Shown here: piece by piece, positions 4,725 to 50,643 of the stretch | Layout: every line of letters starts with the position of its first letter | Position numbering within the stretch: the first letter of the stretch is position 1 | NCBI GenBank assembly: GCA_028641055.1 | Contig: CM054058.1 | Coordinates: forward strand, 80,412,392 to 80,476,391 | Source of the DNA: Alopecurus myosuroides | Taxonomy: Eukaryota; Streptophyta; Magnoliopsida; Poales; Poaceae | Direction of reading: 5' to 3' | Length of the DNA: 64,000 bases | Notes under the pieces: model-generated | Databases searched by the model: none | Seen by the model: the letters and a program-made list of their open reading frames with translations, nothing else | What the model was told of the DNA's origin: nothing | Position numbers and translations under genes: made by a program

Positions 4725-7177
4725 TTACTCGGGTCTTGTTGGTGGGGTTTGCACAGCCATGTATAATTGCCGTGTGTTTGTCTTCTGAGCTCTGCGGGAT
4801 GGGCAGACTTTTTGTATCATCCCCAACAGTCTCGCCGGGTTCGGGTATGCGTTGGCTCCGGCGTTTGCTGCGGGTGGCGCAGGTAGTGCGGCTAGCACCG
4901 TTTTCTGATTTCCTGGCAGAGGCAGGGGTTGTGGTGGTTGGAACCCTTGGTGTCCTCCTCCCGGAAGTGGCGGGTAGCTTTGACTAGCTTCTGATCTACT
5001 TTTCTTCGAGAAGGCCTCGTGGATTTCAATGAACTTCCGGCAATCCTTGAGAAGGTGGGTTGCCTTAGTTTTGCCCGTGCACTTATCTGTAAATAGATGT
5101 AGCGAGCAGTATCCGTCGAGGTCCTCCTCGGGAGTTTTGTCTTCAGTGTTTGGTTTCCATTCGCGACTTCCTCGGCGTCCGCTATCGCGATTTCGCGTGA
5201 ATTCCACTGCTACCAGTTCTTCTCGGTCGTCGTGATCGTAGTACTTCCTTATTTTCTTTCGACCATGGCGGTCGTCCTCGGGTGCGGGCGAAGATGTCCT
5301 CTCGTTGCGTACTGATTCCTCTCCATTAGCCCATCTATCGGCTATGATCAGAAGCTCTCCAATAGTCTTGGGTGCGGCTCGTCCCAGTTCTTCTCTGAAA
5401 TCAGTTCGTCGAGCACCCTTTGCGAAGGCCTCAACCGCTACTTCTTCTGATATGTTTCCTGCGGTGTTCCTGAGCGTGGTCCATCGCTGGATGTATTCGC
5501 GAGTGGACTCGCCACTCTTTTGTTTGCAGGCTCGAAGTTCCTTGATGGTCGCCGGTCTTTTGTAGGTGGCTTGGAAATTTTTGCAAAAATCGAAGTGCAG
5601 ATCGTCCCATGATGCATAGTAGGACTTCGGTCTCGCTTCTAGCCAGCTACGCGCTGCTCCTACCAACTGTAGGTTGAGGTACTGCATAGCCGTGTTCTTG
5701 TTCCCACGTTGGCATTTTACTACCGTGAGGTAGTCGTTTAGCCATGACGAAGGTTCGAGTAAACCATCATACTTTGTTACTTCTCTGCTGAGCTTGAATC
5801 TCTTGGGTAAAGGCGCTTCGCGGATGCTGCGAGCAAAATACAGTGCGCCGCAGGTCTTGTCATCAGAAGAACCGGATGAGGAGTGCGCACGGTTCCTTGC
5901 TACTCTTTCTTTGTCCACTCTATTTTTCGCGATGTCCGACCGCGCGTTGTAACCGGGCTGATCGCGGTCGGTTTCTTTCCTTGGTTCCTTGCTGCGTTTT
6001 CACGAGTGGCTGCTGTGATGTCGCGAGCCAAGATCTCTATTTCTTGGGCTACCTTCGCTGCTGCTTCGTCTGTCATCGCGTCGCCGGGCTTCTTTTCCTC
6101 GACCATGGCGAGGCGATTTTTCTCTTCTGGGTGAAGCACTTCTATGCTTGCGCGACGCTTCCTTCTCCTTCTCCTTCTCCTTCTGTTCGGCAGCTTTCCT
6201 GCGATCATAGGAGGCAAGCCTTGAGGCTGCCATGCCTAATCCTTTCCGAACTTGCTTGTATTACTCTGCTCGGGGGTCATTTTCCCCTGGTTGATTCATC
6301 TGCATGTAGGTTTCTGCGGCTAAGACTGTGGCAGCAGGGGTTTGCGAATAGACGTTTCCTTCCTCGTCAACCCGCATGAGGGAAGGTCCGAGTGACCTGC
6401 TGATCTCGCCTAGGGACTCTTCGTCCATGGACGCCGTTCTTGACGCGTATCCCTTCCTTGCGGGTCGGGTTCCGACAGAAGGTGTTAGGGACAGCTCGGC
6501 TCGGCGTTGACTTGATTCATCTGCCAATTTTTTCCGATGAGCTAGATCTATCCGAGCTTCCTTGATCGCGGTGGCCACTCTCACAAGATGATAGTGGTAG
6601 GCGACCATGTCTTCGTGTGGGGCTCCGGCCGCAGGTGGCTTGCTCGTTCGGATGGCCTCCTTTGCTCGATCCCAAGCGTCTCGCGAGACGCCGATCTCGG
6701 CGTGTTCCCTTGCGCTGTGCTCTGTTTCTGGGGGGTGGTTGTTCCGATCCTGCCATGCAGACCTGAGCCATTCGTGGCTTGTGAGTCCTAGGCGTAACTC
6801 GGAAAGCTTTATTGACCTGAGAGGGTTCTTCTGTAGAGAGGGTATGGAAGTTGCTGGCGTTGAACCGGATGGACTCGCCGCTTTTCTCCAGGTAGGGCCG
6901 CGAGTCGACGGCTCCTGACTCACATCCCAATTCCTCAGGGAAGTGGAGGACCCCGTCTTTGTTGGTGTAGAATTTGAAGCTTCCGAACGTCAAAGTGATG
7001 CTCTTCTCCAGATCGCCGAATACCGGGCGTGATTCCGGCGAGTGAGGGGTGACCACGACAGATCCGATCCGAATAGGGTTGGTCGGAGTCGAGGTCGAGG
7101 GTCTCCAACGTGAGTTGGTTGATGAAGCCGAAGATGCCGGAGATCCAGCGCCCGCCGTTCCCACATACGGCGCCAAT
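4725..7177 (-). pseudogene. gag: Gypsy gag (Tat-like), broken by frameshifts
   Basis: Gag forms the capsid of the virus-like particle. Reading on the minus strand, coding potential moves through three frames (7,177-6,517, then 6,923-6,261, then 6,217-5,900) before a long 397-aa frame at 5,918-4,725, so several indels have broken it. The last frame holds the retrotransposon gag core: W-rich stretches (SSWLNDYL, ARSWLEARP), then DDLHFDFCKNFQATYKRP and STREYIQRWTTLRNT. A knuckle-like pattern follows (YCSLH...THLLKDCRKF, about residues 260-290) and then a proline-rich tail. After the stop, another frame from 4,718 reads ITFSMEDHPPRVYRPGH, like the lead-in to protease in Tat-type elements. Probably not functional. 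Confidence 0.75.
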
Positions 7178-7669
7178 TGTCGAATCTGCATCTCAACAAG
7201 TCCCTCGGGTGAACCCATAGGGTTTCGAATAGGAGAACTTGTGGACGCTGGTGACAATCATCGGCTAGACATGATGCACGATTTACCCAGGTTCGGGGCC
7301 CTCGTAGAGGTAAAACCCTTACTCCTGCCTCTATCGATCTGTATTATTGAATAGATCGGTTACAATGGGGATTGCTCAAGTCGAGAGTACGATCTCGAGC
7401 TCAAGGCTTGGTGGTGCGGTATTGCTTGGTCCTCTTCCGGTGGTTCTCCTGGCCTTATATAGGTGGCCAGGTCTCAAACCGTACCCGGGGAGGACTCGAA
7501 CTCTAAACCTATGTCGGTTACAAGTTTCCTATCTTAACCCGCAAGGCATTGCGGGTGGGCTTCGACTGGGCCTTCTAGAATAGTCCAAAGGCTTCCCGTC
7601 TTGGGCTTCAGTCTTGGGCCTAGGACCGGGTATCCTTATTCGCCGGGTCCAAGGTTCATCCCTTCGTCA
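7178..7669 (-). repeat. LTR of C1, 492 bp
   Basis: On the plus strand it starts TGTCGAATCTGC and ends CCCTTCGTCA. On the minus strand it is followed after one base by TTGGCGCCGTATGTGGG, a primer-like site. A TATA box reads ctatataagg on the minus strand (7,453-7,462). It is matched by an equally long copy at 23,954-24,445. Confidence 0.8.
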
Positions 7670-8275
7670 CTTGGGAGATGGATTTTTTGAAAATAGTAGA
7701 CCATGTTATGTGCATAAATAACCAAATTGTTCTCTCTGAAAAAGTTTTTATCCACCTCTTTAAAAAAACACAAGTTTTTGCCGATTTAGTTGGAAACAGG
7801 TCAAATTTGAACTACATGTGCATCGTAGTTTGCTCATGGTTTTAGGGGGAAAATCATTTATAGGTACACAACTACCTATTTCATCACAGATACACCAATA
7901 TTTTCTCAATATTCAACCCCTAGCTACGAATGGTCATGCCCCCCGTCCTGACATTTTCCTGAAATCGACATAGAAAATCCTAGAAAATTCAAAAAAACAC
8001 AAAATGATGCAATAACTTCGCGGGGTGTCATTATATATGTCCTAGTATCCACCAAAAATAATATACTTGGAATACGACAGTTGGGTTGAAATGATGTTCA
8101 TAGAAATGAGATATCTCCTCCGAAGATTCTAAGGTTTCGGGACAAATGACGAGTGTTATGGCCAAATCCATGGCATAGTTTGTTGGAATGTGCCCATATT
8201 ACACACAAAGATGCATCTTGGACACACGGACAATATTGACGGAGAAATGTTTTCTTTTCATTGAATAAACAAAAC
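7670..8275. mobile_element. CACTA-related fragment D, first copy
   Basis: This AT-rich, non-coding stretch of 606 bp is bounded by the C1 LTR and the L LTR. It is nearly identical to 24,446-25,051 and similar to the tandem units at 50,777-51,880, which lead to a CACTA terminus at 52,130. In those units the sequence runs on past ataaacaaac, so L inserted here after aacaaaac. Confidence 0.65.
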
Positions 8276-11200
8276 TGTAACAGGCCAATTTTTGGAAGAC
8301 ATGAATAACTTGTTTTCAGTTCCCAAAAATCAGGGCCAACAAAAACTTTTTGATATGTTTGACTTATGCTTGTGTTTTCATTTATATTTCTTGTTGTATG
8401 TGTTTGTGTTTGTTAACACCTGACATTAAAACCAATGATCATAACTTTCTTAAAACACAACCCTTATGATCAAGTCATGACAAGAAAGCTTATCATCTTC
8501 ATCCATCACCCTGTTTTGACAAAAACCTTTTTGAAAATGTTTTGATTTTAGAAGAAACCCAAAGGCCAAGTTTTGTGAACGACAAAAGATAATTTCCAAA
8601 ACTATATGAAAAGTATTTTGGAGCTAATCATCTCCAACCTGTTTTCAACCAAGATGTTTTTGCAAGTATTTCAAAAACTCCTTCTCACTTCCTTATTTTG
8701 CAAAAACAATAAGAGGGGACTATGTTACCCCTCTGTTTTACCTCAATTATATTCTGTTGGAAATAACAACTTTTGAGATGGACCTATTTACCAAACCCTC
8801 TTGTCATGGTATGTCTTGATCACTACCTATAATTAACACTTGAGAAGAATACCTGGAAATTAAATTGAAGAACTCATTTGGTTGAGTGATCTTGTGTGAC
8901 TTGTTATTTTAGCTACTTGTGGTGTGATCTTATCTTGTGTGTGCTTTGAAGTATTTATTTCTTCTTTTTGATTAATGTGTGTTGTTTTAATAAAATAAAA
9001 CCTATTAATAACAAGATCAAGCATCAATACCAAATTCCATCTCATGTCCATATCATCTTCTGTTTTCTTAAAAATCTCCAACTTTGGAGACAGGCTTCTA
9101 TGACAAATCTTGAACTAATCATCAATGCAGCATCATACATCTCATTGTCTATATACATGCTATGAATCCAAGTTGTTAATATGGTTATTTCAACGTTTCG
9201 GTGTCTTCTCTCAAAGTCCTTTAGAAAGGCATCCCTCAATATTGATCATATTCCTGTTATCTTGATGCATTTTCTCTGTGTTATTCAAAATCACTCCTTA
9301 TTGTTTTCAAGCCCAATCAACCAAACCTTTTCATCTTCATGACTTAGATATCACCTATTTGTGGTCCATTTATTTTTCAATGGCCATTTAATTATTTATC
9401 TCTCATGGTTTTTAGCCTATTAAATAAACCCCTGTTTTCACCCTTTTCCACTTGGAGCCTCAAATATTTTCAAAGGAGTTGTTTATTAAAAATCACTTTT
9501 GAGACTTATATTATGTACTCTCTCATCCCAACTTAAAAATATTTGTTTTAAAGGCATTTTACTATTTATTATTTTCCATTTTCCAAAAGGCCAGAAATGG
9601 ATTTTAAAATATTTTGTGAAGAAAAGTATTTCCTAAAATCTTGGAAAAATTAACCAACATGACTATGGTGATGTGGGATCATTTTATAGAAAAACATTTG
9701 GAATTTGTGTTGAAAATTTTGGAGAAAACATTTAAAAACAGATTCAGCACTTTTCTAAATTCAAAAATTTATGAAACATTTTTTTTATAAAAACTCTTGA
9801 GGCCACCATCCCTAGAATCCATTTTTGATTCTCTATTCAATGGACATGATTTTGCACGTATGTTCTATTCAAATTATTGGTGGAAACAATCAAAACCCTC
9901 CACTGGTTATTTTGGACATGGTTGGGTTCACACATGTCTTGATCAATTTTTGCACTCTCTCTACCTCTCTTCTGTTCTGGGAGATGAAAACCCCCTTCCT
10001 CACCCTCATAGACATGTTCGACCCTGTCATAACTCTCTCTCTCTCTCTCTCTAACTCAGCCAACAACTAAGGGACAAGGATGGTGATCACCCCTCCTTCT
10101 CACCCCCCACCTCCTATGTCCAAACCAGGAGCTTCCCTTGCGCCACGAGGCTCTCTATGCATCGTGTAAACTCCCTGGCATAACCCCTCCCCCTCTTCTT
10201 GTCTTCATCTTCCTTGCCCATGAGTAAAACTTGCCAAACCAAAAATCACAGATGTGGATATACTAATTTATAACCATCTCCAACTTGCAGATCCATGATT
10301 TGTGTTGTATTTTAGGAGAAATAAAATAAATCGTAGAAGAACTCATTAACACCTTTTATATAATAACTTGAGATTTATGTATCCAAAACATGCAAACTCA
10401 ATTGTTCTGAGTAGCCCTTCATAATGTCTATCTGTTGCATTTGGCCTTGTGTTGACTTGAGTTGCGGTGTGAAACTGACGTGCATGTTAGTTTTAGGCCA
10501 GAGAGCATTTCTGTGATTTGTTTAAGTTTATTGGTGATGAAGTTTGATGTGAATCCACTTGTGTTGGTTTTCTAGTGACTAGGAGAACCTTAAACTATAT
10601 TTTCATGATTTTAGGAGTTACAGAATAGGCTTGGTGCATTATTTAGTGTTTAGCCTATTTCTGCATATTATTGCTATGCCTTTATTAAATTGTGTGTTAT
10701 ATTGTTTTTTGTATAAAATTGATTCCTAGCATGTGTAGGGTATTAATTCATGTTTAGGATGTGTCTTGAGTGTTTCACTAGCATGATAGGGTTTGTGTGT
10801 GTAAACCAGGCTTGTTATAGTTTAAATCAAATAGGGTTGTTTCCTAGTAATAATAGGTTAAATTATGTTATTCTTCATATTGGTGTGATGAATTGATTAA
10901 ATGCTTTAGTATTGTTTTCCATAGAATACATACTGTTATTATAGCATATTATACTTGCTTGCATGCTTGAGTGAGCTCTAGATCAAATTGTCATGCTATG
11001 ATAGTTTTTGGTGATTTTTGTGCCATAAGTTGTTATTTGCATGCTTAATTTTTGAGGCATTGAGTAGATTTTTATTTTGACATTACTAGCATGTCTAGGT
11101 GTTGTTTCCACTGTTATTTGGATGCTATCTTATAGATCTATAAAGTTAGAATAAATATTGTATATTGATCTCTTGTGGTTATGCATGTATGCTTGTCTAA

Positions 11201-13030
11201 ATAGCCCTTTTCATGTCTAGCATTAATAGTTGTTTTGCTTCATGATTATTTTCATGCATTGAGTGATGCCATGATATGTTTGGTATTGTTTTGTCTCTAT
11301 TATTAGGTTGCTTAGCTACTGGTTTTACTATTTATCCATGATTAGAAAAGCATGTGTTACTATGAGCTTGTAATATTGCTTCTTATTATTTTCCTATGCA
11401 TGTGTATGTGTTCCTAGGTTGTTTTCTTGTTATTTTTCTCATCCTCATGAATTACCAGAGAGTCATTTAACCTTATTTGGGCATGATATGAGAGTTTCAC
11501 ACCCACTGGACTCATGCCATTTTGGTTGAGGATCCATAACATCTATTCTTGTGCTATTCATGTGTGTTGTATGTGCATGTTTTGCTTGATGGTGTGCACC
11601 CTAGTAATATTGTTTGTGAGTGTACTTGTTTGATGAAATGCTTGCTGCATGTTTAATTTTTTTCAAGTGATTTCCTTTTTTTTGTTCTGGTTGGGTGTTT
11701 TCCTTTTTAAGTTTACGACGTTAGATAACGAAGACAGTATTATTCCCCGGAGAGGTTTTTATTGCAACTCTTCTTTATTTCAAGACCAAGACCAAGACCA
11801 GTGCCAAGGCAAGACAGTCTAAATGCTTTCTGTTGTTTTACTTATCATTATCTATCATGCATGCTTTACTTCTGAAGTTTTACAAAAGTTGATTCAAAAA
11901 CTATTTCCTCAAGTGGACTATACCACTGTCTGCTTTATGTATCTAATATGCTATATCCACTATATAATCTTGGTGTTACCAAGCCCTTTAGATATTTTAG
12001 TATCATCTCTTAATCAACTTAAGTCCCTTAGTGGACCTTTTAACTTGATGTTTTTGGAAAAACAAAAGATTTGGAAAAACCCGAGGAAAGGTGGGACCTT
12101 GTCCAAGGGAGGTTTGTGAAGGAAGAAATGTTTTCGACTTGTTTTCCAAAAATGACACATAACCTAGTCTTCGCCGGACAACCAAGATGTGCTGCCACAT
12201 TACCCCAATATGGGAACGGGGTCTAGCTAAAATCTTGTTGGTGTTAGTGTGTGTCTACCTCAATGTGCTATAGGGGTCAGATCCCCTGAACCGAATTGTC
12301 GCCAGAAAGGAAAGAATGGGACATTCAGAGTGTGGGATTAAGTTCGCCACCAGGTGAAACAGTTGGGTCTCATGTCATGGAGTTATGTTGACAGGGGAAA
12401 CCGGATCGATACGGCTCACTCACTCGGTGCCGGGGAGAACAAACCCAATTGAAGAGGTAGCCATTTACTAGTACTTGCATAGTGGATAGTTAGGACCAGT
12501 TATCTGATGTTTGCATACTGTCTTGGATAGTCCGTGGTTGTTCACGGCCGATGTACTGGATCTTGTGGATTGTGTACACCTCTGCAGAGTAAAACTATTC
12601 AGAATAGCCGCGTCCTCGGATATGAACAGTTGAATGGCCATGTAGCTAGCATTGTGTCAATGTTTTCGAAAAGATGGAAAAGTATTTTGGAACGTGTACC
12701 CGGGAGGTACGTTGAAAGGGAATGAATGTACCTTTAAGGTACTAGAAAAATGATGATTTTGAAGATGTGATCTTCCAAGAGGTTTTGCAAAGAAAAACTT
12801 TCTTTTATTTAGAATGCTTTATCAAAACCTTGTGGACATGCAATATCTACAAGAGAAATAAAATATCTTTTGAAGTATCTTCTTCAACAAGAGCAACTAA
12901 AACTTGTGAAACCATGATGTGTCTTCAATTCATCATGGCTAGTTGAACCTTAATTACAGACTTCCTACCACCTATATATATACATACTTTCATGTTTAGC
13001 TTTCATTTGGAGTGTCTTGCGAGTACATTC
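8276..13030 (+). repeat. L-family 5' LTR, copy 1 (truncated, with internal deletion)
   Basis: It starts TGTAACAGGCCAATTTTTGG directly after CACTA DNA and aligns with 25,052-30,868. Two losses distinguish it. A 1,064-bp GC-rich segment is missing at about 10,226, and the last 386 bp of the LTR plus the L body start are missing at 13,030, where B sequence begins. It contains a CT-dinucleotide run near 10,030-10,051. A plus-strand TATA-like run (ctatatatatacat) lies near 12,972-12,985. Confidence 0.85.
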
Positions 13031-13053
13031 ATCTATGCATTTTACATGCATCA
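13031..13053 (-). repeat. 23-bp remnant of a B LTR
   Basis: Only the terminal bases of a B LTR remain (plus strand ATCTATGCATTTTACATGCA then TCA), joined directly to L sequence. L ends acattc here and the intact B LTR has aattc before this point, so the join shares attc. This is a deletion breakpoint, not an insertion border. Confidence 0.85.
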
Positions 13054-14707
13054 ACATCCCCAAGCTTAACCCATGCTCGTCCTCGAGTATGAAGGTGATA
13101 AAACTAAGATGGGTTTTGCATATTGAAACAATCATGGGATATCAAGGAGGATTATTCATGCTACATATAATCAAATGATTAATACTAGAAATGAGTAGGA
13201 ATATACAATTCATGTTGTAAGAAATATCAAATATGCAAGCAAAGATGCTTCATGAAAGTTCACAAAGTGTATAATGAAATAAAAGCACTATGGACCAAAT
13301 GCATACACAAAATGAAAAATAAAATCCTATATTGGTCAAAGAATAGCATAATGGAGAATAGAAAATATAGTGGACACTTTGGAGAAAATTGAGTAGAGGT
13401 AAAACATGATCAAGTCTTATTTAGCCTCTAGATTATTCAACTAAAATTACTAATTGAAATGTGGTATCCATTGATCTAGGACTCTCATTTCCCCTTTATC
13501 ACTAGCATCTTAAAATTGTGAGTATTGAAGTAATGAGAATGACAAGGTGGTTGAAAGCCTCATGCCCCAGGAGTGTGAAAACCTACTCCATGATTACTCA
13601 ACTTAAGATTCCTAATAAGCTTTGTAAAATCATAATAATTATTAATTACATCATAGAGAACCGCAAAGAGGTACCTATTGCCCCATTACATGGAAACAAG
13701 CCCATGTTACAATGACAAGATGAACAAACGGACTAGACTCATCATCCTTTTTATTTTCATTCACTATTATGCATAGCTTCTTATTTTATTATAGGATGTG
13801 TTGTAGAGTCACTCAAGCTGTAAGTAAATTTCCACCATGATAAAGCATGGCTTGGGTTAGCGGCCCAATGCGTTTCTCTAGTCATATAGATACTTACTCA
13901 TCAAAACTTACTATTCCTCTATTTCATTTCGGCATGGCAGGAGTCCAAAAAAAGTACATGATATCAACCAAATGTAATTTTTTTGTGCAATGTTGAAAGC
14001 TTTCCGGTGATACACGTTTATAGCTAGCTCCCAACCACACACTTTTCAAACGCAAAACTTGTGGCTCCCATTATTGGGTCATGTTTATTAGATGCATAAA
14101 AAGTAAAGTGTGCCTTCAAAAGTTCGTGAGAGTCCTATCCCAAGTTCAACCCATGACAATTAATAAAGTGAATATCTTAATTTAGAACATAAATAACACA
14201 ATAACATGGTGAACATACTCGGAATAGCAATGAATTTAATGGGAAGATATGGTGGACTCACTGGAAATACTTAGCTAAGGAGTGTTGGAAACAAGTTTTT
14301 ACTTGTTGGAATTTTTTAATTTTTGGGCTAGCAAGAGGGAGATAGTTGACCAGATACTATGCATGCATATGTCCATAGAACTACTCATTTCATGACAAAC
14401 TAAATAAACCAGCAATTAACATCAAGGACATGAATAAGAGATAGCTCAAGACAACATTATTGCAAATTTCTACACATAAAAAACCTATAAATCATGCAAA
14501 CATATGTAGCTCTTCAAATCAACCATGGCATCCCTATTCCAAGTCATAATACTAGCATCCAATACATTCCAACCCCAAACTCCAGTAGCTCAATCTCATA
14601 TAAAATGATGGTGGTGGTCTTATCAAAACAAAAATAAAAACAAAAATTAGACGCTTCAAGTCTCTACGATAAATGCTTTGCTTAGAAAAACAGAAAGTAG
14701 ACGTGTG

Positions 14708-14941
14708 CTAACCAAAAGAGTGTAGCTCCAGTGGGGTGTTCATCACATCCCCAAGATTATGGCTTTCACCATTCTTGGATGTCTTGAGGCGCAACTCCTC
14801 TATTCCCTGTGAAAAAACTTCACAAAACATGTTTCTCCCATTCTTTTTCTGTGGGGTGAGATTAGCAAGGACAATAAAATCACATGCTTGCTGTGCAAAA
14901 TTCCAAATCAAATGCTCCAGTAGATAGACAATAAGGTTCAT
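14708..14941 (-). CDS. Conserved 77-aa ORF (B2 copy)
   Basis: Same length and frame as the ORF in B1 at 811-1044, with conserved residues NLTPQKKNGRNMFC and FSQGIEELR and a conserved LELHSFG-like end. It lies in the downstream half of the element, on the element's sense strand. No domain is recognised. It is uninterrupted here and at 35,567, but frameshifted in the 40,732 copy. Confidence 0.4.
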   Translation of the reverse strand: MNLIVYLLEHLIWNFAQQACDFIVLANLTPQKKNGRNMFCEVFSQGIEELRLKTSKNGESHNLGDVMNTPLELHSFG

Positions 14942-15417
14942 TATGGTTTATGTTCGCTCTCTTGCTTGAAATAATCATGGAAATTCGATTCCCAATCCCA
15001 AAGAGTGCATAAAACAAAAGAAAGCAGAATCTGTCCAGAAAAGCAGCAGCAGCAAAACGAACGTTTTTTCCTAAGTTATACTCGTCAAAAAATTAAGCCA
15101 ATTTTTTTGCTTACAGAGGACGAAAAGTTGCAGAACGTACTAAAAAATTAGCTCAATCCGACATCCCAATAAAACACGTAAAATCATACGGTGAGCAGAC
15201 TCGTGCTGAAACAGAAATTTCGTGCACTAGGATAGCAACTTATAAGTCCAAATGGGTTTGACTTGACTCTTTATTGAAAACTCCAGAATTAAAACACAAA
15301 AACTATTCTCTTGAGACAGCAAGAGGACACTAGGAAAATCCAAACAAAAACAACCGGGTTGCCTCCCGTAAAGCGCTTTCTTTATAGCCATATAGCTAGG
15401 CTTTACTTACTTGATAA

Positions 15418-16152
15418 TCAAGAGGGATAAAGCTCATGAGGGAGCTTGTTCTTCATCGTGCCCCTCTTACTTGGGAAGTGCTCCATGCTTTTCTTGTGAT
15501 GGAACTGAAACTTGACATTCACTTCCTTGGAGTCTATGATTGCACCTGTAGTACGAAGAAAAGGTCTACCCAAAATAATAGGACTAGGGGATTTATCCCT
15601 CATATCCATAATAATGAAATCAACGGGTATGAAAGTCATGTGCAATTAAATCATAACATCTTTTAATTGTCCTACATCATGGTTAGTAGAGTTATCAGCA
15701 AGGACAAATTCACTTGAGCGCTTTTCTAAATTTTTTAGTTCTAGTAATTCATATAATTCTTTAGAGAGTACCGATACACTAGAACCTAGATCTAACATAG
15801 CATGTTGAATTTCTTTTCCATTTGAAACTAGCACCTTGGGGATCCATGCATCCCCAAGATTAGGAGGTATCATGGCCTCATTATTGTACCTAGAAATTTT
15901 TTCTTGCAAGATATGATTAGCAATATAAGATCCAAAACCAGGTTGATTAACATTTATAGTGGGCTCACTAGCAAATTTTTGTAGAGTAGCAATAAGTTCT
16001 TGCTAGCTACTTTTTTCTAAATCAAGCAATGGATCCTTAATTTCAGTAAGCATCATAATTTCCTCTACTTTACTCTCTAATTTTTCAACGGGAATATTTA
16101 TCTCTTGAGGGAAATTCCTAACACTGAATGGCCAATAAGTTCTCTGCTCCAT
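15418..16152 (-). pseudogene. Athila-type aspartic protease-like ORF, broken (B2)
   Basis: The ORF begins near 16,152, about 325 bases after the primer site. The protease part carries the retroviral-type active-site block AMLDLGSSVSVLS (D-[LS]-G-[SA] family pattern) and, about 70 residues later, the flap-side motif PIILGRPFLRTTGAIID. These are the hallmarks of Athila/Gypsy proteases, which cleave Gag-Pol. In this copy a TAG near 16,010 and a TAA near 15,654 interrupt the frame. The C-terminal end at 15,418 is a true stop, not followed by reverse transcriptase, so the family carries a stand-alone protease-like protein. Sister copies lie at 36,283-37,016 and 41,443-42,177. Confidence 0.75.
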
Positions 16153-16159
16153 TTTCCAA

Positions 16160-16476
16160 GTTTTTATGTAGTTTTTAATTTTTTATGCACAACAAAAGTA
16201 AAGTAACTAAGCAAATTCGAAATACTAAAATAATCTAGATAACTAAATGCAAAGCTAAAATGGAAACTAAAATAAAATATGCAAGACAAAACAAAAACAA
16301 GAACAAAAACAAAAACAAAAACAAGACAAGAAACAAAACAATCTACTTGAAAGAAGGTGGAGATAGAAAGGACGATACTCACGTAGGTGCAACCTCCCCA
16401 AGCTTAGGTGTTTGCACATCTTGTTGGTGATGAAGACTTCTTGTGAGCTCCATTGGACAACTCCTTCACCTATGGC
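16160..16476 (-). other. B2 leader between primer site and first ORF
   Basis: Non-coding leader. It includes an A-rich run of repeated aaaacaag/aaaacaaa units (about 16,285-16,340) whose length differs among the three B bodies. Confidence 0.6.
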
Positions 16477-39078: not shown

Positions 39079-40731
39079 ACATCCCCAAGCTTAACCCATG
39101 CTCGTCCTCGAGTATGAAGGTGATAAAACTAAGATGGGTTTTGCATATTGAAACAATCATGGGATACCAAGGAGGATTATTCATGCTACATATAATCAAA
39201 TGATTAATACTAGAAATGAGTAGCAATATACAATTCATGTTGTAAGAAATATCAAATATGCAAGCAAAGATGCTTCATGAAAGTTCACAAAGTGTATAAT
39301 GAAATAAAAGCACTATGGACCAAATACATACACAAAATGAAAAATAAAATCCTATATTGGTCAAAGAATAGCATAATGGAGAATAGAAAATATTGTGGAC
39401 ACTTTGGAGAAAATTGAGTAGAGGTAATACATGATCAAGTCTTATTTAGCCTCTAGATTATTCAACTAAAATTACTAATTGAAATGTGGTATCCATTGAT
39501 CTAGGACTCTCATTTCCCCTTTATCACTAGCATCTTAAAATTGTGAGTATTGAAGTAATGAGAATGACAACGTGGTTGAAAGCCTCATGCCCCGTGAGTG
39601 TGAAAACCTACTCCATGATTACTCAACTTAAGATTCCTAATAAGCTTTGTAAAATCATAATAAGTATTAATGACATCATAGAGAACCGCAAAGAGGTACC
39701 TATTGCCCCATTACATGGAAACAAGCCCATGTTACAATGACAAGATGAACAAACGGACTAGACTCGTCATCCTTTTATTTTCATTCACTATTATGCATAG
39801 CTTCTTATTTTATTATAGGATGTGTTGTAGAGTCACTCAAGCTGTAAGTAAATTTCCACCATGATAAAGCATGGCTTGGGTTAGCGGCCCAATGCGTTTC
39901 TCTAGTCATATAGATACTTACTCATCAAAACTTACTATTCCTCTATTTCATTTCGGCATGGCAGGAGTCCAAAAAAAGTACATGATATCAACCAAATGTA
40001 ATTTTTTTGTGCAATGTTGAAAGCTTTCCGGTGATACACATTTATAGCTAGCTCCCAACCACACACTTGTCAAACGCAAAACTTGTGGCTCCCATTATTG
40101 GGTCATGTTTATTAGATGCATAAAAAGTAAAGTGTGCCTTCAAAAGTTCGTGAGAGTCCTATCCCAAGTTCAACCCATGACAATTAATAAAGTGAATATC
40201 TTAATTTAGAACATAAATAACACAATAACATGGTGAACATACTCGGAATAGCAATGAAGCTAATGGGAAGATATGGTGGACTCACTGGAAATACTTAGCT
40301 AAGGAGTGTTGGAAACAAGTTTTTACTTGTTGGAATTTTTTAATTTTTGGGCTAGCAAGAGGGAGATAGTTGACCAGATACTATGCATGCATATGTCCAT
40401 AGAACTACTCATTTCATGACAAACTAAATAAACCAGCAATTAACATCAAGGACATGAATAAGAGATAGCTCAAGACAACATTATTGCAAATTTCTACACA
40501 TAAAAAGCCTATAAATCATGCAAACATATGTAGCTCTTCAAATCAACCATGGCATCCCTATTCCAAGTCATAATACTAGCATCCAATACATTCCAACCCC
40601 AAACTCCAGTAGATCAATCTCATATAAAATGATGGTGGTGGTCTTATCAAAACAAAAATAAAAACAAAAACTAGACGCTTCAAGTCTCTACGATAAATGC
40701 TTTGCTTAGAAAAACAGAAAGTAGACGTGTG

Positions 40732-40970
40732 CTAACCAAAAGAGTGTAGCTCCAGTGGGGTGTTCATCACATCCCCAAGATTATGGCTTTCACCATTCTT
40801 GGATGTCTTGAGGCGCAACTCCTCTATTCCCTGTGAAAAAACTTCACAAAACATGTTTCTCCCATTCTTTTTTCTGTGGGGTGAGATTAGCAAGGACAAA
40901 CAAATCACATGCTTGATGTGCAAAATTCCAAATCAAATGCTCCAGTAGATAGACAATAAGGTTCATTATG
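40732..40970 (-). pseudogene. Conserved 77-aa ORF, frameshifted (body b)
   Basis: One extra T in a T run near 40,866 shifts the frame, so the C-terminal part (from KKNGRNMFC) stays open but is joined to an unrelated N-terminus. Intact relatives lie at 14,708 and 35,567. Confidence 0.5.
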
Positions 40971-41442
40971 TTTTATGTTCGCTCTGTTGCTTGAAAGAAT
41001 CATGGAAATTCGATTCCCAATCCCAAAGAGTGCATAAAACAAAAGAAGGCGGAATCTGTCCAGAAAAGCAGCAGCAGCAAAACGAACGTTTTTTCCTAAG
41101 CTAGACTCGTCAAAAAATTAAGCCAATTTTTGTGCTTACAGAGGACGAAAAGTTGCATAACGTACTAAAAAATTAGCTCAATCCGACAGCCCAATAAAAC
41201 ACGTAAAATCATACGGTGAGCAGACTCGTGCTGAAACAGAAATTTCATGCACTAGGATAGCAACTTATAAGTCCAAATGGGTTTGACTTGACTCTTTATT
41301 GAAAACTCCAGAATTAAAACACAAAAACTATTCTCTTGAGACAGCAAGAGGACACTAGGAAAATCCAAACAAAAACAACCGGGTTGCCTCCCGTAAAGCG
41401 CTTTCTTTATAGCCATATAGCTAGGCTTTACTTACTTGATAA

Positions 41443-42177
41443 TCAAGAGGGATAAAGCTCATGAGGGAGCTTGTTCTTCATCGTGCCCCTCTTCCTTGGG
41501 AAGTGCTCCATGCTTTTCTTGTGATGGAACTGAAACTTGACATTCCCTTCCTTGGAGTCTATGATTGCACCTGTAGTACGAAGAAAAGGTCTACCCAAAA
41601 TAATAGGACTAGGGGATTTATCCCCCATATCCATAATAATGAAATCAACGGGTACGAAAGTCATGTGCAATTCAATCATAACATCTTTTAATTGTCCTAC
41701 ATCATGGTTAGTAGAGTTATCAGCAAGGACAAATTCACTTGAGCGCTTTTCTAAATTTTCTAGTTCTAGCAATTCATATAATTCTTTAGAGAGTACCGAT
41801 ACACTAGAACCTAGATCTAACATAGCATGTTGAATTTATTTTCCATTTGAAACTAGCACCTTGGGGATCCATGCATCCCCAAGATTAGGAGGTATCATTG
41901 CCTCATTCTTGTACCTAGCAATTTTTTCTTGCAAGATATGATTAGCAATATAAGATCCAAAGCCAGGTTGATTAACATTTATAGTGGGATCACGAGCAAA
42001 TTTTTGTAGAGTAGCAATAAGTTCTTGCAAGCTACTTTTTTCTAAATCAAGCAATGGATCCTTAATTTCAGTAAGCGTCATAATTTCCTCTACTTTACTC
42101 TCTAATTTTTCAACGGGAATATTTATCTCTTGAGGGAAATTCCTAACACTGAATGGCCAATAAGTTCTCTGCTCCAT
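41443..42177 (-). pseudogene. Athila-type protease-like ORF with one stop (body b)
   Basis: This is the best preserved copy upstream. The frame is open from the ATG at 42,177, about 325 bases after the primer site, through a region rich in charged residues (VEKLESKVEEI, DPLLDLEKSS). A GAA-to-TAA change at about 41,837 stops it just before the active-site block MLDLGSSVSVLS. The rest is open to 41,443 and holds PIILGRPFLRTTGAIID. Comparison of the three copies shows the family ORF is about 245 codons, shorter than any gag-pol and lacking reverse transcriptase, RNase H and integrase. Confidence 0.75.
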
Positions 42178-42501
42178 TTTCCAAGTTTTTATGTAGTTTT
42201 TAATTTTTTATGCACAACAAAAGTAAAGTAACTAAGCAAATTCGAAATACTAAAATAATCTAGATAACTAAATGCAAAGCTAAAATGGAAACTAAAATAA
42301 AATATGCAAGACAAAACAAAAACAAGAACAAAAACAAGAACAAAAACAAGACAAGAAACAAAACAATCTAATTGAAAGAAGGTGGAGATAGAAAGGACGA
42401 TACTCACGTAGGTGCAACCTCCCCAAGCTTAGGTGTTTGCACATCTTGTTGGTGATGAAGACTTCTTGTGAGCTCCATTGGACAACTCCTTCACCTATGG
42501 C

Positions 42502-42519
42502 TCCCCGGCAACGGCGCCA
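42502..42519 (-). other. Primer-binding site, tRNA-Asp (body b)
   Basis: Perfect complement to the tRNA-Asp 3' end on the minus strand, 10 bases from the LTR at 42,530. Confidence 0.9.
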
Positions 42520-42529
42520 GAAAAATGCT

Positions 42530-44224
42530 TGATGGCTAGGTTGAGACTCCAAGTGCAGAGTGTGTAGCTAGTGGCAAGCCTTCTTCCCCACGAGGGTGAC
42601 TCGAGGGTTTATATCGAACTCTTGGGGAGCCAGTATTTCAGCAGTTGTCTTCCAAGCTTTCTCCAGGATCCTGCAAACAAGTAGAGAATTTTGTGCCCTC
42701 AACCTCACCAAGTGGTTGTCAAACACAAGGTGTGAGACTTCTGAATTGCAATGCAAAACTGAAAGTAAATGTGCAATAATTAAATCTACTACTAAATGCA
42801 AATGAGAAAATAAATATGCAATGGATTGTTTTTGTATTTTTGTGATGCAAGTGGTGATGGAGATGATGTAAATTCGAATTGGAGATGCAAGTAAAGTAAA
42901 GTGCAAGTAAAGTAAATTGCAGCAAAGTAACAAGAGTGTTTTCTTATAATTAAAATAGGACCGGGGTTCATGGTTTCACACTTGCATTCTCTCAAATAAA
43001 GTAGTAGACGGTGGACATAAAGAATTACATGTGAGATTACAATAACATGTTTAACATTGAGTAATTTCATATGGGCATCATGTCCTAGCATAGAGATCTC
43101 TACGGTCATATTGATCCCTCTTATACTCCACCAAGATGCGAAATAAATCATAACACCTCGATAATTAGGGAAAAACCAGAGTATATCTTTAAGCAATGTG
43201 ACATGAAGTTGAAGTAAGAACTTGCTAGATCTAGTCATGGAGATTGATTAGTGTCACTTCAAATCCCCGGTAACAAGGTACTCCTTTTTATCCCTAGTGA
43301 GGTAACTAAGAAAGGTTTAACAAAACCTAAGTGGATCGCTGAACTTCTGTCACTTTCACAGCACTAGCAACCCCCCGTTACTCCAACTAATGCACCCATC
43401 ACCCCACACACGCTCTCAAGAACTAGATTGATAAAAGCTAGCAAATAAGAACGGGGTACATAAGATACATCTACTCAAATAACTCAAGAGAAACAATTGC
43501 AATCTCAGATTCAATAACTCATAGAAAAGATCCACCACATAGGAATTACAACGGTGCCCGTAATCATGTGAGGCATCTCATACGGATCTAATTAGTGAAG
43601 CACATAGAGAGAGAGATACAAGTGCTACTTCCACAAACCCATAGCCCTGGGGTGGACTACTCCCTCTTCATGGAGATGTCGATGGTGATGACGTTGGAGG
43701 GGTAGGAGATCACACCGGCGGCGCCCCTCCGGAGTTTTCCCCCTCCAATCTGGAACTCCAGGTCTCTGTTTCGGTGTTTCGGTGGCGCTCCTCTCCGTAA
43801 GGGTACGGGGGACCGTTTTTATAGTCGGTTTTAGGTCAAGACGGAGTCGGTAAGTCGAAGATGGAAGGAATTGGGGCCAAAAGGGGGCCTCTCACACGGC
43901 CAAGGAATCTGGCCGCGTGGAGGGTCCTCTTTTGGGCCTCCTTGCCCAATTATCGTGGATCCTTCGCTCGCAAGTCTTCTCCTTCCAAGAAAATGACCCC
44001 CGCAGATTTTTCAGGTGATTTCGCGGAAGTTTGCCCCCTGAAACGTCAAAAATGTAGAAAACGGGGTTTCTGACAGGCAGGGTTAATTCCATAAAAGTTG
44101 GGGGACTTTGTAATTTAACCCCAAAATACTATAAAACATTGAATTATACCCTTATATGATGCAATATGTAATAGAAAACCATGTGAAAATATGCAAAATT
44201 CATCTATGCATTTTACATGCATCA
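42530..44224 (-). repeat. B array LTR 3 (outermost 5' LTR), 1,695 bp
   Basis: It ends TGCATCA and is followed by the right target duplication CCCAC (44,225-44,229) and the L body. It corresponds to the B2 LTR at 16,505-18,199 in length and flank. Confidence 0.9.
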
Positions 44225-45431
44225 CCCACATCCCTCGGTTTTTCCCCAACACCCCAGAAGCAGAAGAAGAACCATTTCAGAGCTACAAGTTTCACTGGAA
44301 CTTAAAAGGGATACATGATTTGAGGGATACCATTACACCTGACAAATGAAAGTTTCAGAAAGTAAGATACAAGTCTGTTTCCAACACAGACCACTACAGC
44401 TACGCCGGTGTAGACACTAACATTGCCTAGCCCTCGCTGGCTGGAACCTAGTCTGACGGTGAGCCAGTCTCACCTGATGCCGAGAACCGAGTCAGGCGAC
44501 GGCAAAGCCCCTCGAGTCTTCCTGGCCTGGTGCCACCAGCTTGGACCTCCACCACCGGAGCCACTACTCGTCCTTCTTCCACCGCGGTCTCGCTCCTGGG
44601 CCAGACCACCAGTCGTAGATGCCCCAGACGATGCAGACCACAGCTACCACGATCACCGTGACCCACCCCACCACGCCACAGATGAAGAACAGCACGATGA
44701 CGAAGTGCTCTAGGGGATTTGCTCGCTCCAGCAGGGTGACGTACTCCTTGAAGAAATCATCGATGAGCTGAGAAATGAAACCCATTGTGTGGTGCGATTT
44801 AGAGAAACCTCGGTGACCTTTTTATAGCAGCAGGGGAAGAGCCCTCTTCTCCATCGAGCACTACGCGGGAAAAGTCGAAGAATCCAGCTGTAGTGCTTGC
44901 AAATGGCGCGAAATCACCGATGCATCCCTCCACCAATTGGTCGAAGAATCGACACGTCGCACTCACAGCAGTCTTATGGCGAGGTGTCAGTCCACCATGA
45001 GCTCACAGTGGGCGGGACGCCCTGATGCCAAGGGTGGGCGCACCAGGATGGAAGGCCAGGCAAGAAGAAGAATAAGACGAAGAAGAAGAAGAAGAGAGAA
45101 GGGCATCGACTACCAAGTGGACCTGGTCCCACACGTCGGTGTATGACTCCAGAAAAACCCCGGGTGTACATGGCTACTAACCCTTTTTCAAATTGTGGGA
45201 AAAATCTTGACAAGATCACTAATTGTTTGTAGCCTCTACCCCTACACAACTAGGTCTCTGTGGCCCCCTTGGTGAGTAGCCAGTCTTATCTTCAGGCTTG
45301 GAGAAATTGTTTTGGTTTTCCTAAAACCTGAAAAAAAAAAGAGTTTTGTGTTTTTTGTTTGTAAAGAAACCCCTCTTCCTTGTTTTCCCTTACGAATCTC
45401 GAGGACGAGATTCATTTTAAGGGGGAAGAGC
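44225..45431 (+). mobile_element. L-family body, 3' part (copy 2)
   Basis: Continuation of the L body after the B array, nearly identical to 18,200-19,412. It ends with the polypurine tract before the second 3' LTR. It contains the broken antisense ORF and a GAA run near 45,062-45,097. Confidence 0.8.
44564..44785 (-). pseudogene. Antisense membrane-protein ORF, truncated by a stop (copy 2)
   Basis: Counterpart of 18,467-18,760. It keeps the N-terminus MGFISQLIDDFF, the hydrophobic core and the upstream TATA box, but ends at KKDE because CAG became TAG. A few conservative changes occur in the hydrophobic part (ICGVVGW, VCIVWG). It would encode 73 residues. Confidence 0.4.
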
Positions 45432-48400
45432 TGTAACAGCCCAATTTTTGGAAGACATGAAAAACTTGTTTTCAGTAACCCAAAAACCAGGGCCAACAAA
45501 AACTTTTTGATATGTTTGACTTATGCTTGTGTTTTCATTTATATTTGCTTGTTGTATGTGTTTGTTAACACCTGGCATTAAAACCAATGATCATAACTTT
45601 CTTAAAACACAACCCTTGTGATCAAGTCATGACAAGAAAGCTTATCATCTTCATCCATCACCCTCTTTTGACAAAAACCTTTTTGAAAATGTTTTGATTT
45701 TAGAAGAAATCCAAAGGCCAAGTTTTGAGAACAAAAAAAGATAATTTCCAAAACTATATGAAAAGTATCTTGGAGCTAATCATCTCCAACCTATTTTCAA
45801 CCAAGATGTTTTTGCAGTATTACAAAAACTCCTTCTCACTTCCTTCTTTTGCAAAAACAATAAGAGGGGACTATGTTACCCCTGTGTTTTACCTCAATTA
45901 TAATCTGCTGGAAATAAAAACTTTTGAGCTGAACCTCTTTACCAAAGTCATGGTATTTATTGATCATTACCTATAACTAACACTTGAGAAAAACACCTGG
46001 AAATTAAATTGAAGAACTCGGTTGGTTGAGTGATCTTGTGTCACTTGTTATTTTATCTTCTTGTGGTGTGATCTTATCTTGTGAGTGCTCTGAAGTATTT
46101 ATTTCTTCTTGTTGATTAATGTGTGTTGTTTTAATAAAATAAAACCTATTAATAACAAGATCAATCATCAATACCATATTCCATCTCATGTCCATATCAT
46201 CTTCAGTTTTCTTAAAAATCTCCAACTTTGGAGACAGGCTTCTATGACAAATCTTGAACTAATCATCAATGCATCATCATACATCTCATTTTCTATATCC
46301 ATGCTATGAATCCAAGTTGTTAATTTGGGTATTTCAACACTTTGGTATCTTCTCTCAAAGTCCTTTAGAAGGCATCCCTCAATATTGATCATATTCCTAT
46401 TATCTTTATGCATTTTCTCTGTGTTACTCAAAATCACTCCTTACTGTTTTCAAGCCCAATAAACCTACCCTTGTCATATTCATGACTTAGATATCACCTA
46501 TTTGTGGTCCATTTATTTTTCAATGGCCATTTAATTATTTATCTCTCATGGTTTTTAGCCTATTAAATAAACCCATGTTTTCACCCTTTTCTACTTGGAG
46601 CCTCAAATATTTTCAAAGGAGTTGTTTATTAAAAATCACTTTTGTGACTTCTATTATGTACTCTCTCATCCAAACTAAAAAATATTTGTTTTAAAGGCAT
46701 TTTACTATTTATTATTTTCTATTTTCCAAAAGGCCACAAATGGATTTTAAATTATTTTGTGAAGAAAAGTATTTCCTAAAATCTTGGAAAAATTACGCAA
46801 CATGCCTATGGTGATATGGGATCATTTTCTACAAAAACTTTTGGAAGTTGTGTTTAAAATTTTGGAGAAAACATTTAAAAATAGATTCAACACTTTATGA
46901 AATTCCAAAATTTTGTGAAACAAATATTTTTTTCAAAACTATTGATGCCACCATCCTTAGAATCCATTTTTGATTATCTATCCAATGGACATGATTTTGC
47001 ACATATGTTCTATTCAAATTATTGGTGTAAACAATCAAAACCCTCCACTGGTTATTTTGGACATGGTTGGGTTCACACATGTCTTGATCAATTTTTGCAC
47101 TCTCTCTAGCTCTCTTGTGTTCTGGGAGATGAAAAACCCCCTCCTCACTCTCCTAGACATGGTCTACCCAGTCATAACTCTCTCTCTAACACAGCCGACA
47201 ACTAAGGGAAAAGGATGGTGATCACCCCTCCTTCTCGCCCCCCACCTCCTCTGTCCAAACCAGGAGCTTCCCTTGCGCCACGAGGCTCTCTATGCATCGT
47301 GTAAACTCCCTGGCATAACCCCTCCCCATCTGCTTGTCTTCATCTTCCTTGCCCATGAGTTTTCCATGGCGCCCAGGACGCACGCGACACGTCCCTCGCG
47401 TTCCAACACCTGGGCCGCATGCCGCGCCTCCACCCCTTGTCTACTAGCTCCACTAGCCTCCCAGGAACACACCCGTGCCTCCCATTCCTCTCCTCGCGCT
47501 CTCCTTCCTCCTCTAATCATTGTCGAACACCTGCGGGTGGGAGCTCGGAGCTCAGGCTCCCGCTCGCTACAAACCACCTCCTCCCTATCTAGATGTTCGT
47601 AGAGGACCTCCTGGTCATGCTCCACCACCCAGGCAACCCTTGCTTCTCCCTTGATGCCCGCACGCGAGCCGCCATGGTCGCCGTGTGCCATGTCCGCCGA
47701 GCGCTGACGCCGGGAAGATCAGAGGCATCCCATGGATCTTCATCGTACCTCCTAGCCCACACTCGTCCTCAATCAAACCCCGGAGCAAAAATCTCCCTCT
47801 TTTGCTCGGTCCACCATGGAGATCGAGCTTGGGACGCCGCCGGCGAGTCCCTCCCTGAGCCGTCGACTCGAGCTACCCCCGGTCGTGTCGTTTCCTTCCC
47901 TTCCTTCCTAGAGTGCACGCCTTTCTCTAGCCCCTCTCAATTTGAGTCCCTATTTCTTGCAGGAGCACCGCCGACCGTGACCCTGGTCTGCTGCCGCGAA
48001 TCCTTGGTGGGCATCCCGCTCCTCCCGTTCCCGTCAAGATCCGATGGAGGAATCGGCTCCGCCTCATCTCCTTTGATACCCTGGCGCTGTTCGCACTTGC
48101 TGGCGCCCCATGGAACCACCGGCGGAGAGCTCTCCGGCCATCTGTAGAGGGACAGGCGGACACCGCCGGCGCGAAAACGACGCGGTCAAATCTCCACCGT
48201 CGGATCCCCATCCTACGGAATGGTACCTCTTCGCCCAGGGCCTCTTTGACGGATGGGCCAGACGCGGCCCAAAGCTGGTCATTCGATTTTTCTCCACCGG
48301 CGGGAAAAGCTAACAGGCTGGCCCAACTCGGAGATCCTGCCCGTGTGATTTTTCTAGAAGGTTGTTTTTTTTCCTTTTTCCTGCAGATCTGTTTTCTCAT

Positions 48401-50643
48401 GTTTTACTTAAAATGGAAATGAAAATGCAAATGCGTAAAACTTGCCAAACCAAAAATCACATATGTAGATCTACTAATTTATAACCACTTCCAACTTGCA
48501 GATCCATGTTTTGTGATGTATTTTAGGAGAAATCAAATAAATGGCAGAAGCACTCATTAACACCTTTTATTTAATAACCTGAGATTTATGTATCCAAAAC
48601 ATGCGAACTCAACTGTTCTGAGTAACGCTTGATAATTTCTATCTGTTGCGGTTGGCCTTGTGTTGACTTTAGTTGTGGTGTGAAAATGACATGCATGTTA
48701 GTTTTAGGCCAGAGACCATTTCTGTGATTTGTTTAATTTTATTGGTGATGAATTTTGATGTGAATCCACTTTGTGTTGGTTTGCTAGTGACGAGGAGCAC
48801 CTTAAACTAGATTTTCATGATTTTAGGAGTTACAGAATAGGCTTGGTGCATTATTTAGTGTTTAGCCCTTTTCTGCATATTATTGCTATGCCTTTATTAA
48901 ATTGTGTGTTATATTGTTTTTGTTATAAAATTGATTCCTAGCATGTGTAGGGTATTAATTCATGTTTAGGATGTGTCTTGAGTGTTTCACTAGCATGATA
49001 GGGTTTATGTGTGAAAACCAGGCTTGTTATACTTTAAATCCCATAGGGTTGTTTCCTAGTAATAATAGGTTAAAATATGTTATTCTTCATATTGGTGTGA
49101 TGAATTGATTAAATGCTTTAGTATTGTTTTCTGTAGCATAGATACTGTTATTCTAGCATATTATACTTTCTTGCATGCTTGAGTGAGCTCTAGATCAAAT
49201 TTTCATGCTATGATAGTTTTAGGTGATTTTCCTGCCATAAGTTGTTATTTGCATGCTTAATTTTTGAGGCATTGAGTAGATTGTTATTTTGGCATTACTA
49301 GCATGTCTAGGTGTTGTTTCCTCTCTTATTTGGGTGTTATCCTATAGATCTATCAAATTATAATAAATCTTGTTTAATGATCTCTTATGGTTATGCATGT
49401 ATGCTTGTCTAAATAGCCCCTTTTCATGTCTAACATTAATAGTTGTTTTGCTCCATGATTATTTTCATGCATTGAGTGATGCCATGATATGTTTGATATT
49501 TTTTTATCTCTGTTATTAGGTTGCTTAGCTACTGGTTATATTAGTTATCCATGAATAGAAAAGCATGTGTTACTATGAGCTTGTAATATTGCTTCTTATT
49601 ATTTTCCTATGCATGTGTATGTGTTCCGAGGTTGTTTTCTTGTTATTTTGCTCATCCTCATGAATTACCAGAGAGTCATTTAACCTTATTTGGGCATGAT
49701 ATGAGAGTGTCACACCCACTGGACTCATGCCATTTTGGTTGAGGATCCATAACATCTATTCTAGTGCTATTCATGTGTGTTGTCTATGCATGTTTTTCTT
49801 GATGGTGTGCACCCTAGTAATATTATTTGTGAGTGTACTTGTTTGATGAAATTCTTGCTGTATGTTTACTTTTTGTCAAGTGCTTGCCTTTGCTTGGTTC
49901 TGATTGGGTGTTTTCCTTTTTGAGTTTACGATGTTAGATAACGAAGACGGTATTATTCCCCGGAGAGGTTTTATTGCAACTCTTGTTTATTTCAAGAGCA
50001 AGACCAAGACCAGTGCCAAGGAAAGCCACTCTAAATGCTTGTTATTGTTTTACTTATCATTATCTATCATGCATGAATTAGTTCTGAAGTTTTACAAAAG
50101 TTGATTCAAAAACTATTTCCTCTAGTGGACTATACCACTATCTGTTTTATGTATCTAATATGCTATATCCGCTATATAATCTTGGTGTTACCAAGCCCTT
50201 TAGATATTTCAGTATCATCTCTTAATCAACTTAAGTCCCTTAGTGGACCTTTTAACTCGATGTTTTTGGAAAAACAAAAGCTTTGGAAAAACCCGAGGAA
50301 AGGTGGGACCTTGTCCAAGGGAGGTTTGTGAAGGAGGAAATGTTTTCGACTTGTTTTCCAAAAATGACACATAACCTAGTTTTCGCCGGACAACCACGCC
50401 GTGCTGCCACATTACCCCAATATGGGAACGGGGTATAGATAAAAGCTTGTCGGTGTTAGTCCATGTCTACCTCAATATGCTATAGGGGGTAGAGTCCCCT
50501 GAACCAAATTTTCGCAAAAATGGAAAGAATGGGACATTCAGAGTGTGGGATTAAGTTTGCCACTGGTTGCAACAGTTGGGTCTCCTGTCATAGCGGTGTG
50601 TTGTCAGGGGAAACCAGATCGATACGGCTGACTCACTCGGTGC
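45432..50643 (+). repeat. L-family 3' LTR, copy 2 (last ~990 bp missing)
   Basis: It starts TGTAACAGCCC after the polypurine tract and follows the full LTR up to actcactcggtgc, matching 5' LTR position 30,268. It then switches to LINE sequence. It includes the GC-rich island (about 47,362-48,310). Confidence 0.85.
47362..48310 (+). other. GC-rich island in L LTR (copy 2 3' LTR)
   Basis: Third copy of the GC-rich segment. It lacks about 20 bp (near 48,167) relative to 22,152-22,175. Frame lengths differ from the other copies, arguing against a conserved protein. Confidence 0.5.

Follow-up and report, generated by a model that had tools for sequence, protein, structure and literature searches.

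In maize centromere 10, a 22.7-kb adjacent segmental duplication has been described, which its authors attribute to double-strand break repair via alternative end joining (PMC4806543). The locus analysed here lies in a stretch of 64,000 nucleotides of Alopecurus myosuroides DNA (the window) and resembles the maize case in that tens of kilobases of nested and partial LTR retrotransposons appear to have been doubled next to themselves, with a start in the coding sequence of an element, an end within an LTR and later changes affecting one copy. The two cases differ at the joint, which is a 5-nt match between the ends in maize and a 5-nt filler here, and in the later changes, since the maize downstream copy gained insertions whereas here the upstream copy lost sequence (PMC4806543). 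A literature search under the phrase 'tandem segmental duplication' combined with nested LTR retrotransposon gave no match; the maize precedent surfaced under other wording. At locus 5B6 of wild emmer, a ∼460-kb stretch of TE-rich DNA has likewise been copied in tandem in a cereal, but it is far larger and contains genes; the same paper also describes microhomology deletions and templated insertions (PMC7156093). The tandem duplications at maize p1/p2 similarly show joints made by end joining, in which the filler derives from neighbouring sequence, although these are gene clusters and their fillers are longer (9, 13 and 50 bp, with a wider range quoted for other loci; PMC2686159, PMC3014980).

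Layout and extent of the duplication

Two copies of a block of nested elements, U1 and U2, lie adjacent to each other in the same orientation and with the same order of parts, head to tail. They meet at the only novel junction of the locus. The components are as follows.

4725..7669, minus strand: element C, an LTR retrotransposon, with a gag ORF (4,725-5,999), PBS-like sequence and a 5' LTR (7,178-7,669); the duplication starts inside it at 6,972
6972..23742, plus strand: U1, the left copy, 16,771 bp, without two stretches that U2 retains
7670..8275, no strand assigned: fragment D, between C and L, 606 bp
8276..12425, plus strand: 5' LTR of L in U1, ∼4.15 kb, without 1,064 bp at 10,224/10,225; end approximate
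13027..18199, minus strand: N remnant in U1, one LTR and internal region, the other LTR reduced to ∼27 bp; a single TSD copy, CCCAC, at 18,200-18,204
19413..23742, plus strand: 3' LTR of L in U1, truncated by the duplication junction
23743..23747, plus strand: filler AGCTT, 5 bp, at the sole novel junction, as compared with both native edges
23748..49738, plus strand: U2, the right and fuller copy, 25,991 bp
25052..30263, plus strand: 5' LTR of L in U2, ∼5.2 kb, beginning TGTAACAG; end approximate
26999..28062, no strand assigned: U2 stretch absent in U1, 1,064 bp, retained in each 3' LTR of L; 5-bp microhomology ATGAG
30869..39055, no strand assigned: U2 stretch absent in U1, 8,187 bp, 4-bp microhomology ATTC; spans part of the L interior, one N TSD and the left side of N
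32145..44224, minus strand: N array in U2, LTR-int-LTR-int-LTR, with LTRs at 32,145-33,838, 37,374-39,078 and 42,530-44,224
34238..34319, no strand assigned: MITE, 82 bp, confined to the left N unit; an inverted repeat with CTCCCTCCGTCC ends and a TA duplication
45432..50643, plus strand: 3' LTR of L in U2, extending beyond 49,738, where the duplication ends; right end approximate

Both outer edges are native: on the left, two ORFs of C (6,261-6,989 and 6,517-7,257) cross position 6,972, and on the right an LTR of L extends beyond 49,738. About 26 kb of nested elements has very probably been duplicated once, in tandem, within repeat-rich plant DNA. The original prediction had placed C, D and the start of L twice with an equal spacing of 16,776 bp, and self-BLAST agrees (6,972-10,224 matches 23,748-26,998; 98.25%, E = 0), the exact left edge of the block being 6,972 rather than 6,973. 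This offset holds at the left end only; it is 17,838 for the block 10,215-13,030 and 26,025 for the block 13,027-23,742. The shifts arise because U1 lacks 1,064 and 8,187 bp that are present in U2, and, as the offset rises to 26,025, the duplicated unit is ∼26 kb; the present 16,776-bp spacing would itself be a consequence of the losses. The predicted lengths stand in both copies, with 492 bp for the LTR of C (7,178-7,669 in U1 and 23,954-24,445 in U2) and 606 bp for D (606 ungapped alignment columns). U1 does stop within the 3' LTR of L at 23,742, as confirmed by self-BLAST, and the matching LTR of U2 runs past 49,738 as had been claimed, reaching ∼50,643. The ∼26-kb unit, the two losses in U1, the tandem LTR array of N in U2 and the 5-bp filler were absent from that earlier account.

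U1 and U2 differ at 220 of 16,708 aligned columns (1.32%), evenly across nine components (chi-square p = 0.59), compared with a divergence of 6.7% between the 5' and 3' LTRs of L within U2. Using an assumed rate, the age of the duplication is estimated at ∼0.5 million years, whereas the maize centromere event is dated to ∼121,000 years (PMC4806543).

The nested elements and their relative ages

The gag ORF of C matches PF03732 (E = 7.2e-15), and its 492-bp LTR has TG..CA termini and lies next to TTGGCGCCGT. Sequence related to D is found again at 50,771-51,867. The original prediction had labelled D a CACTA fragment, for which no confirmation was obtained. The string CACTA is absent from both strands of D, as scanned in U1, although D may be an internal fragment. 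The only ORF of at least 80 aa that touches D in U1 (8,098-8,412) extends into L. C and L appear to have inserted into D-type sequence, with a target duplication established for neither.

In U2, the 3' LTR of L is preceded by a purine-rich tract and a reverse-transcriptase-like fragment adjoins its right end. The L interior outside N (∼3.1 kb) has no ORF of at least 150 aa and one antisense ORF of 109 aa. Large retrotransposon derivatives (LARDs) combine very long LTRs with an internal region without large ORFs; with its LTRs of ∼5.2 kb and its interior without large ORFs, L corresponds to a LARD as judged by structure alone. The four LTRs of L were compared over 3,223 columns. Among 161 informative sites, 160 pair 5' with 5' and 3' with 3' LTRs across the copies, one pairs LTRs within a copy and none is crossed, a pattern recovered in 1000 of 1000 bootstraps and with equal counts in two tallies. 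Because the LTRs pair by position across the copies, L was already in place before the duplication. Failure of the LTRs of one element to cluster is elsewhere described as an indication of recombination (PMC2672092).

N lay inside L before the duplication. In U2 it is a tandem LTR retrotransposon, LTR-int-LTR-int-LTR, with a single TSD pair, CCCAC, at its outer ends (32,140-32,144 and 44,225-44,229) and an aspartyl protease domain at 36,283-36,867 (E = 1.3e-06). A reading of N as bounded by ends of 27 bp was dropped in view of its 1,695-bp LTRs and its two flanking copies of CCCAC. The 82-bp MITE, which we take from its ends to be of the Stowaway type, is missing from the right N unit of U2, where its site is empty. 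The array resembles a tandem LTR retrotransposon of rice, in which two internal regions likewise have a common internal LTR and one TSD pair (given as 5 nt in the text and 4 bp in the legend); unlike the rice case, the N array sits inside another element and was later duplicated, with one copy truncated (PMC11899658).

The array, and not merely a single N, probably predates the duplication. With Na and Nb denoting the N units of U2 and N1 the N of U1, outgroup-polarised sites support an array older than the duplication by 5:0:0 in the strict count, which we rely upon, and by 7:1:0 when three-state sites are included, and the N LTR patterns do so by 6:1:0. Six of eight internal indels are peculiar to Na and, although unpolarised, favour the same order. 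The raw internal-region distances (1.51% for both Na-Nb and Nb-N1) give no ordering of array and duplication. Singletons are more numerous in N1 than in Nb (48 versus 26, p = 0.014), so unequal rates or gene conversion blur the picture for N.

Origin of the junction and of the losses

The breakpoints fall inside elements, in the leader of C and in the 3' LTR of L, which are unrelated sequences, and BLAST with ±500 bp around each breakpoint gave no match between them. Since the breakpoints are internal and without detected common homology, unequal crossing-over (NAHR) involving LTRs or further dispersed repeats is a very unlikely source of the tandem copy, even though direct repeats abound in the area and may have given rise to the N array in this way; nor is homologous exchange expected to leave filler bases. 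The filler AGCTT occurs again 6 bp into the sequence to the right of the junction; such templating within 20 bp has a chance of ∼4% in direct orientation or 8% on either strand and is weak evidence alone. The most likely origins of the joint are replication slippage across a break and alternative end joining of the polymerase-theta-like kind, because no homology was detected between the joined ends and the 5 bp of filler between them may be templated. Another reading, in which C inserted into the LTR of L and the 5 bp represent its target duplication, was rejected, as the U2 edge at 23,748 is internal to C (LTR 23,954-24,445) and is no C terminus.

An assembly artefact, in which two haplotypes ∼1.3% apart or a mis-joined contig were placed end to end, is an unlikely explanation as judged from the assembled bases. 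In our judgement, the 1.32% divergence and large indels could suit two alleles, but the joint has five bases that are present at that place in neither native edge, the window contains no Ns and an overlap-based false join needs sequence common to both sides, of which none was found at the joint. That the elements of U1 and U2 inserted independently, at equivalent positions, has nothing in its favour beyond the usual repetitiveness of such families, and is effectively refuted by the positional pairing of the L LTRs, by CCCAC on the right side of N in both copies and by the identical boundaries of C, D and L. The prediction of one large duplication of already nested elements rather than independent insertions is borne out by the LTR patterns (160:1:0), the homogeneous divergence (p = 0.59) and the one novel junction. 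For similar nested pairs elsewhere, segmental duplication was excluded by the authors (PMC6911290).

Both losses are on the U1 side. The 1,064 bp were lost from U1, because both 3' LTRs of L contain them; for the second loss, U2 has two copies of CCCAC and U1 has one. The microhomologies have random-pair P values of 0.007 (5 bp) and 0.02 (4 bp). U1 might instead have been born without the 1,064 and 8,187 bp in a single complex replicative event, through MMBIR-like template switching akin to germline chromoanasynthesis. We consider this possible but doubtful. Each of the three joints shows either short homology or filler, and U1 is the copy with both losses, as such an event would have it; however, new substitutions are not clearly more numerous in U1 (the L LTRs have 25 singletons in U1 versus 35 in U2, p = 0.25; adding N brings the counts to 73 versus 61, p = 0.34; N by itself has more in U1, 48 versus 26, p = 0.014) and two separate losses within one copy are not unlikely. 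The single event differs from a tandem duplication with subsequent losses in the timing of the losses alone.

Proposed history and significance

For the duplication of an already nested block, the order of events may be reconstructed as follows. C and the 5-kb-LTR element L would have settled in D-type sequence, after which N would have inserted into the L interior and probably turned into the LTR-int-LTR-int-LTR array. The segment from inside the C 5' region to inside the L 3' LTR would then have been doubled head to tail. Either afterwards or at its birth, U1 would have been shortened at short microhomologies, by 1,064 bp at one place and by as much as 8,187 bp at the other.

The duplication appears to be a clear but ordinary case of a known type of genome change and does not overturn current understanding. 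It offers a base-resolved case of nested retrotransposon blocks growing through DNA repair and not transposition. Duplicated copies of this kind inflate element counts, as L in U1 and L in U2 represent one insertion, which is revealed by the pairing of LTRs across the copies, and the apparent length of a duplicated unit may conceal later losses.

Extent of the duplication and its joint

Self-comparison of the window resolved the tandem duplication into three successive blocks: 6,972–10,224 pairs with 23,748–26,998 (98.25% identity, offset 16,776), 10,215–13,030 with 28,053–30,868 (offset 17,838) and 13,027–23,742 with 39,052–49,738 (offset 26,025). The repeated unit therefore comprises the left copy, U1, and the right, fuller copy, U2, as listed below. 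The 16,776 bp offset of the original prediction holds for the left block and is confined to the first 3.25 kb; the predicted equality of lengths between copies was borne out, both for the LTR of the minus-strand gag-bearing retrotransposon C (492 bp) and for the fragment D (606 aligned columns) that separates C from the long-LTR element L.

Features of the duplicated region
6,972–23,742: U1, left copy (self-comparison of the window)
23,748–49,738: U2, right copy (self-comparison of the window)
26,999–28,062: U2 stretch of 1,064 bp absent in U1, ATGAG at both ends
30,869–39,055: U2 stretch of 8,187 bp absent in U1, ATTC at both ends
32,145–44,224, minus strand: array of the LTR element N in U2, LTR-int-LTR-int-LTR, LTR ~1,695 bp

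Both outer edges are native, with two C reading frames crossing 6,972 (...GGTGTAGA|ATTTGAAGCTTCC) and the L LTR extending beyond 49,738 (...GCCATTTTGG|TTGAGGATCC). The single novel joint, ...GCCATTTTGG-AGCTT-ATTTGAAGCTTCC, lies in direct orientation, as a simple tandem duplication would leave it. No match between the two breakpoints emerged when the ±500 bp on either side of each were compared by BLAST. The 5 bp filler AGCTT recurs 6 bp into the right-hand side of the joint; as the chance of this within 20 bp is ~4% (direct) or ~8% (either strand), it gives a mere hint that the filler may have been copied from nearby sequence.

Order of the nested insertions

The terminal repeats of L (~5.2 kb) differ by 6.7% within U2. 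Across the four L LTRs, 160 sites pair 5′ with 5′ and 3′ with 3′ between copies, one pairs within a copy and none is crossed (3,223 ungapped columns, 1000/1000 bootstraps; identical counts over 3,224 columns in a separate run). These counts indicate that L was already present when the block was duplicated, in agreement with the prediction of an already nested block, and disfavour independent insertion of the same elements. The 1,064 bp stretch occurs, small gaps aside, in both 3′ LTRs of L, and the 8,187 bp stretch takes in one N TSD and apparently part of the L interior; both differences are thus losses by U1, not gains by U2.

N encodes an aspartyl protease fragment. Its array in U2 (units Na and Nb) is bordered by CCCAC on the left and right, and U1 retains one unit (N1), one CCCAC and ~27 bp of the other LTR. 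With the N-related sequence at 1–1,507 as outgroup, sites favour Nb with N1 by 5:0:0 (7:1:0 counting three-state sites), and the N LTR patterns bearing on an array older than the duplication are 6:1:0. Six of eight internal-region indels, a MITE among them, are peculiar to Na and unpolarized. The raw distance is 1.51% for both Na–Nb and Nb–N1, so that the array likely came before the duplication, with little time separating the two. Should the array instead have formed in U2 after the duplication, U1 would have lost ~3 kb, not 8.2 kb.

The MITE, an 82 bp element (34,238–34,319) with CTCCCTCCGTCC ends and a TA duplication, lies in one N unit, the other having an empty site; a MITE of this kind points to a grass host. 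Over the first 1.5 kb of a further N-like element (1–4,652) identity to N is ~87%, and LTR-like matches occur near 4,313–4,654. Within the L interior, a 109-residue antisense frame (18,467–18,796; shorter in U2, 44,564–44,821) has a weak DUF308 match (E = 0.013) and no other. At the right end of the L 3′ LTR no L target duplication was seen; an ORF there (50,493–50,780) matches reverse transcriptase (RVT_1) weakly (E = 2.9e-05, below the curated cut-off). Farther right lie several diverged D-like copies (50,771–51,867) and short tandem repeats with units of ~145, 139, 41 and 103 bp (55,702–61,014). A weak protein-kinase match on the minus strand at 57,108–57,365 (E = 0.06, below cut-off) may mark an exon of a genuine gene beside the repeats.

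Divergence and substitution bias

U1 and U2 differ at 220 of 16,708 columns (1.32%), and this divergence is homogeneous (p = 0.59) among the nine components into which C, D, L and N were divided. At 1.3e-8 substitutions per site per year, which we take to be the rate, the duplication would date to roughly 0.5 million years and L to roughly 2.7 million years.

Transversion excess is uncommon in plant repeat DNA. Between the L 5′ LTRs (8,276–12,425 versus 25,052–30,263) there are 7 transitions and 42 transversions, 34 of the 49 substitutions being C/A or G/T, whereas C plus the L interior shows 24 and 12 (Fisher p = 9e-7, for a grouping picked after the data were seen). GC and CpG content shift the same way and may explain part of the excess, which partly follows low CpG content. 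Ti/Tv is 0.62 between the LTRs of L itself, below 1 in N, 0.68 between the left N relative and N1, 0.67–1.0 among D copies and mixed in local repeats (2.0–3.0 in three, 0.12 and 0.53 in two others).

Origin of the duplication

The joint, which lacks homology, carries filler and links points inside two elements, is most likely the product of alternative end joining or of replication slippage at a break. Unequal crossing-over as the source of the tandem copy is disfavoured. The joint carries bases belonging to neither native edge and the window contains no Ns, which makes an assembly artefact unlikely. That one event produced the duplication together with both U1 losses appears improbable: U1 shows no clear excess of substitutions, with 25 in its L LTRs against 35 in U2; the counts are 73 (U1) versus 61 (U2) for L LTRs pooled with N and 48 versus 26 for N alone (p = 0.014).

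PMC4806543, on maize centromere 10, describes a 22.7 kb adjacent duplication of nested elements, starting in coding sequence, ending in an LTR and attributed to alternative end joining. For wheat, PMC7156093 reports a ~460 kb TE-rich tandem repeat and also templated insertions. The N array resembles the tandem LTR arrays that are relatively abundant in rice, as outlined in PMC11899658. Given these published maize, wheat and rice cases, the U1/U2 duplication is a further example of an already known type of change.
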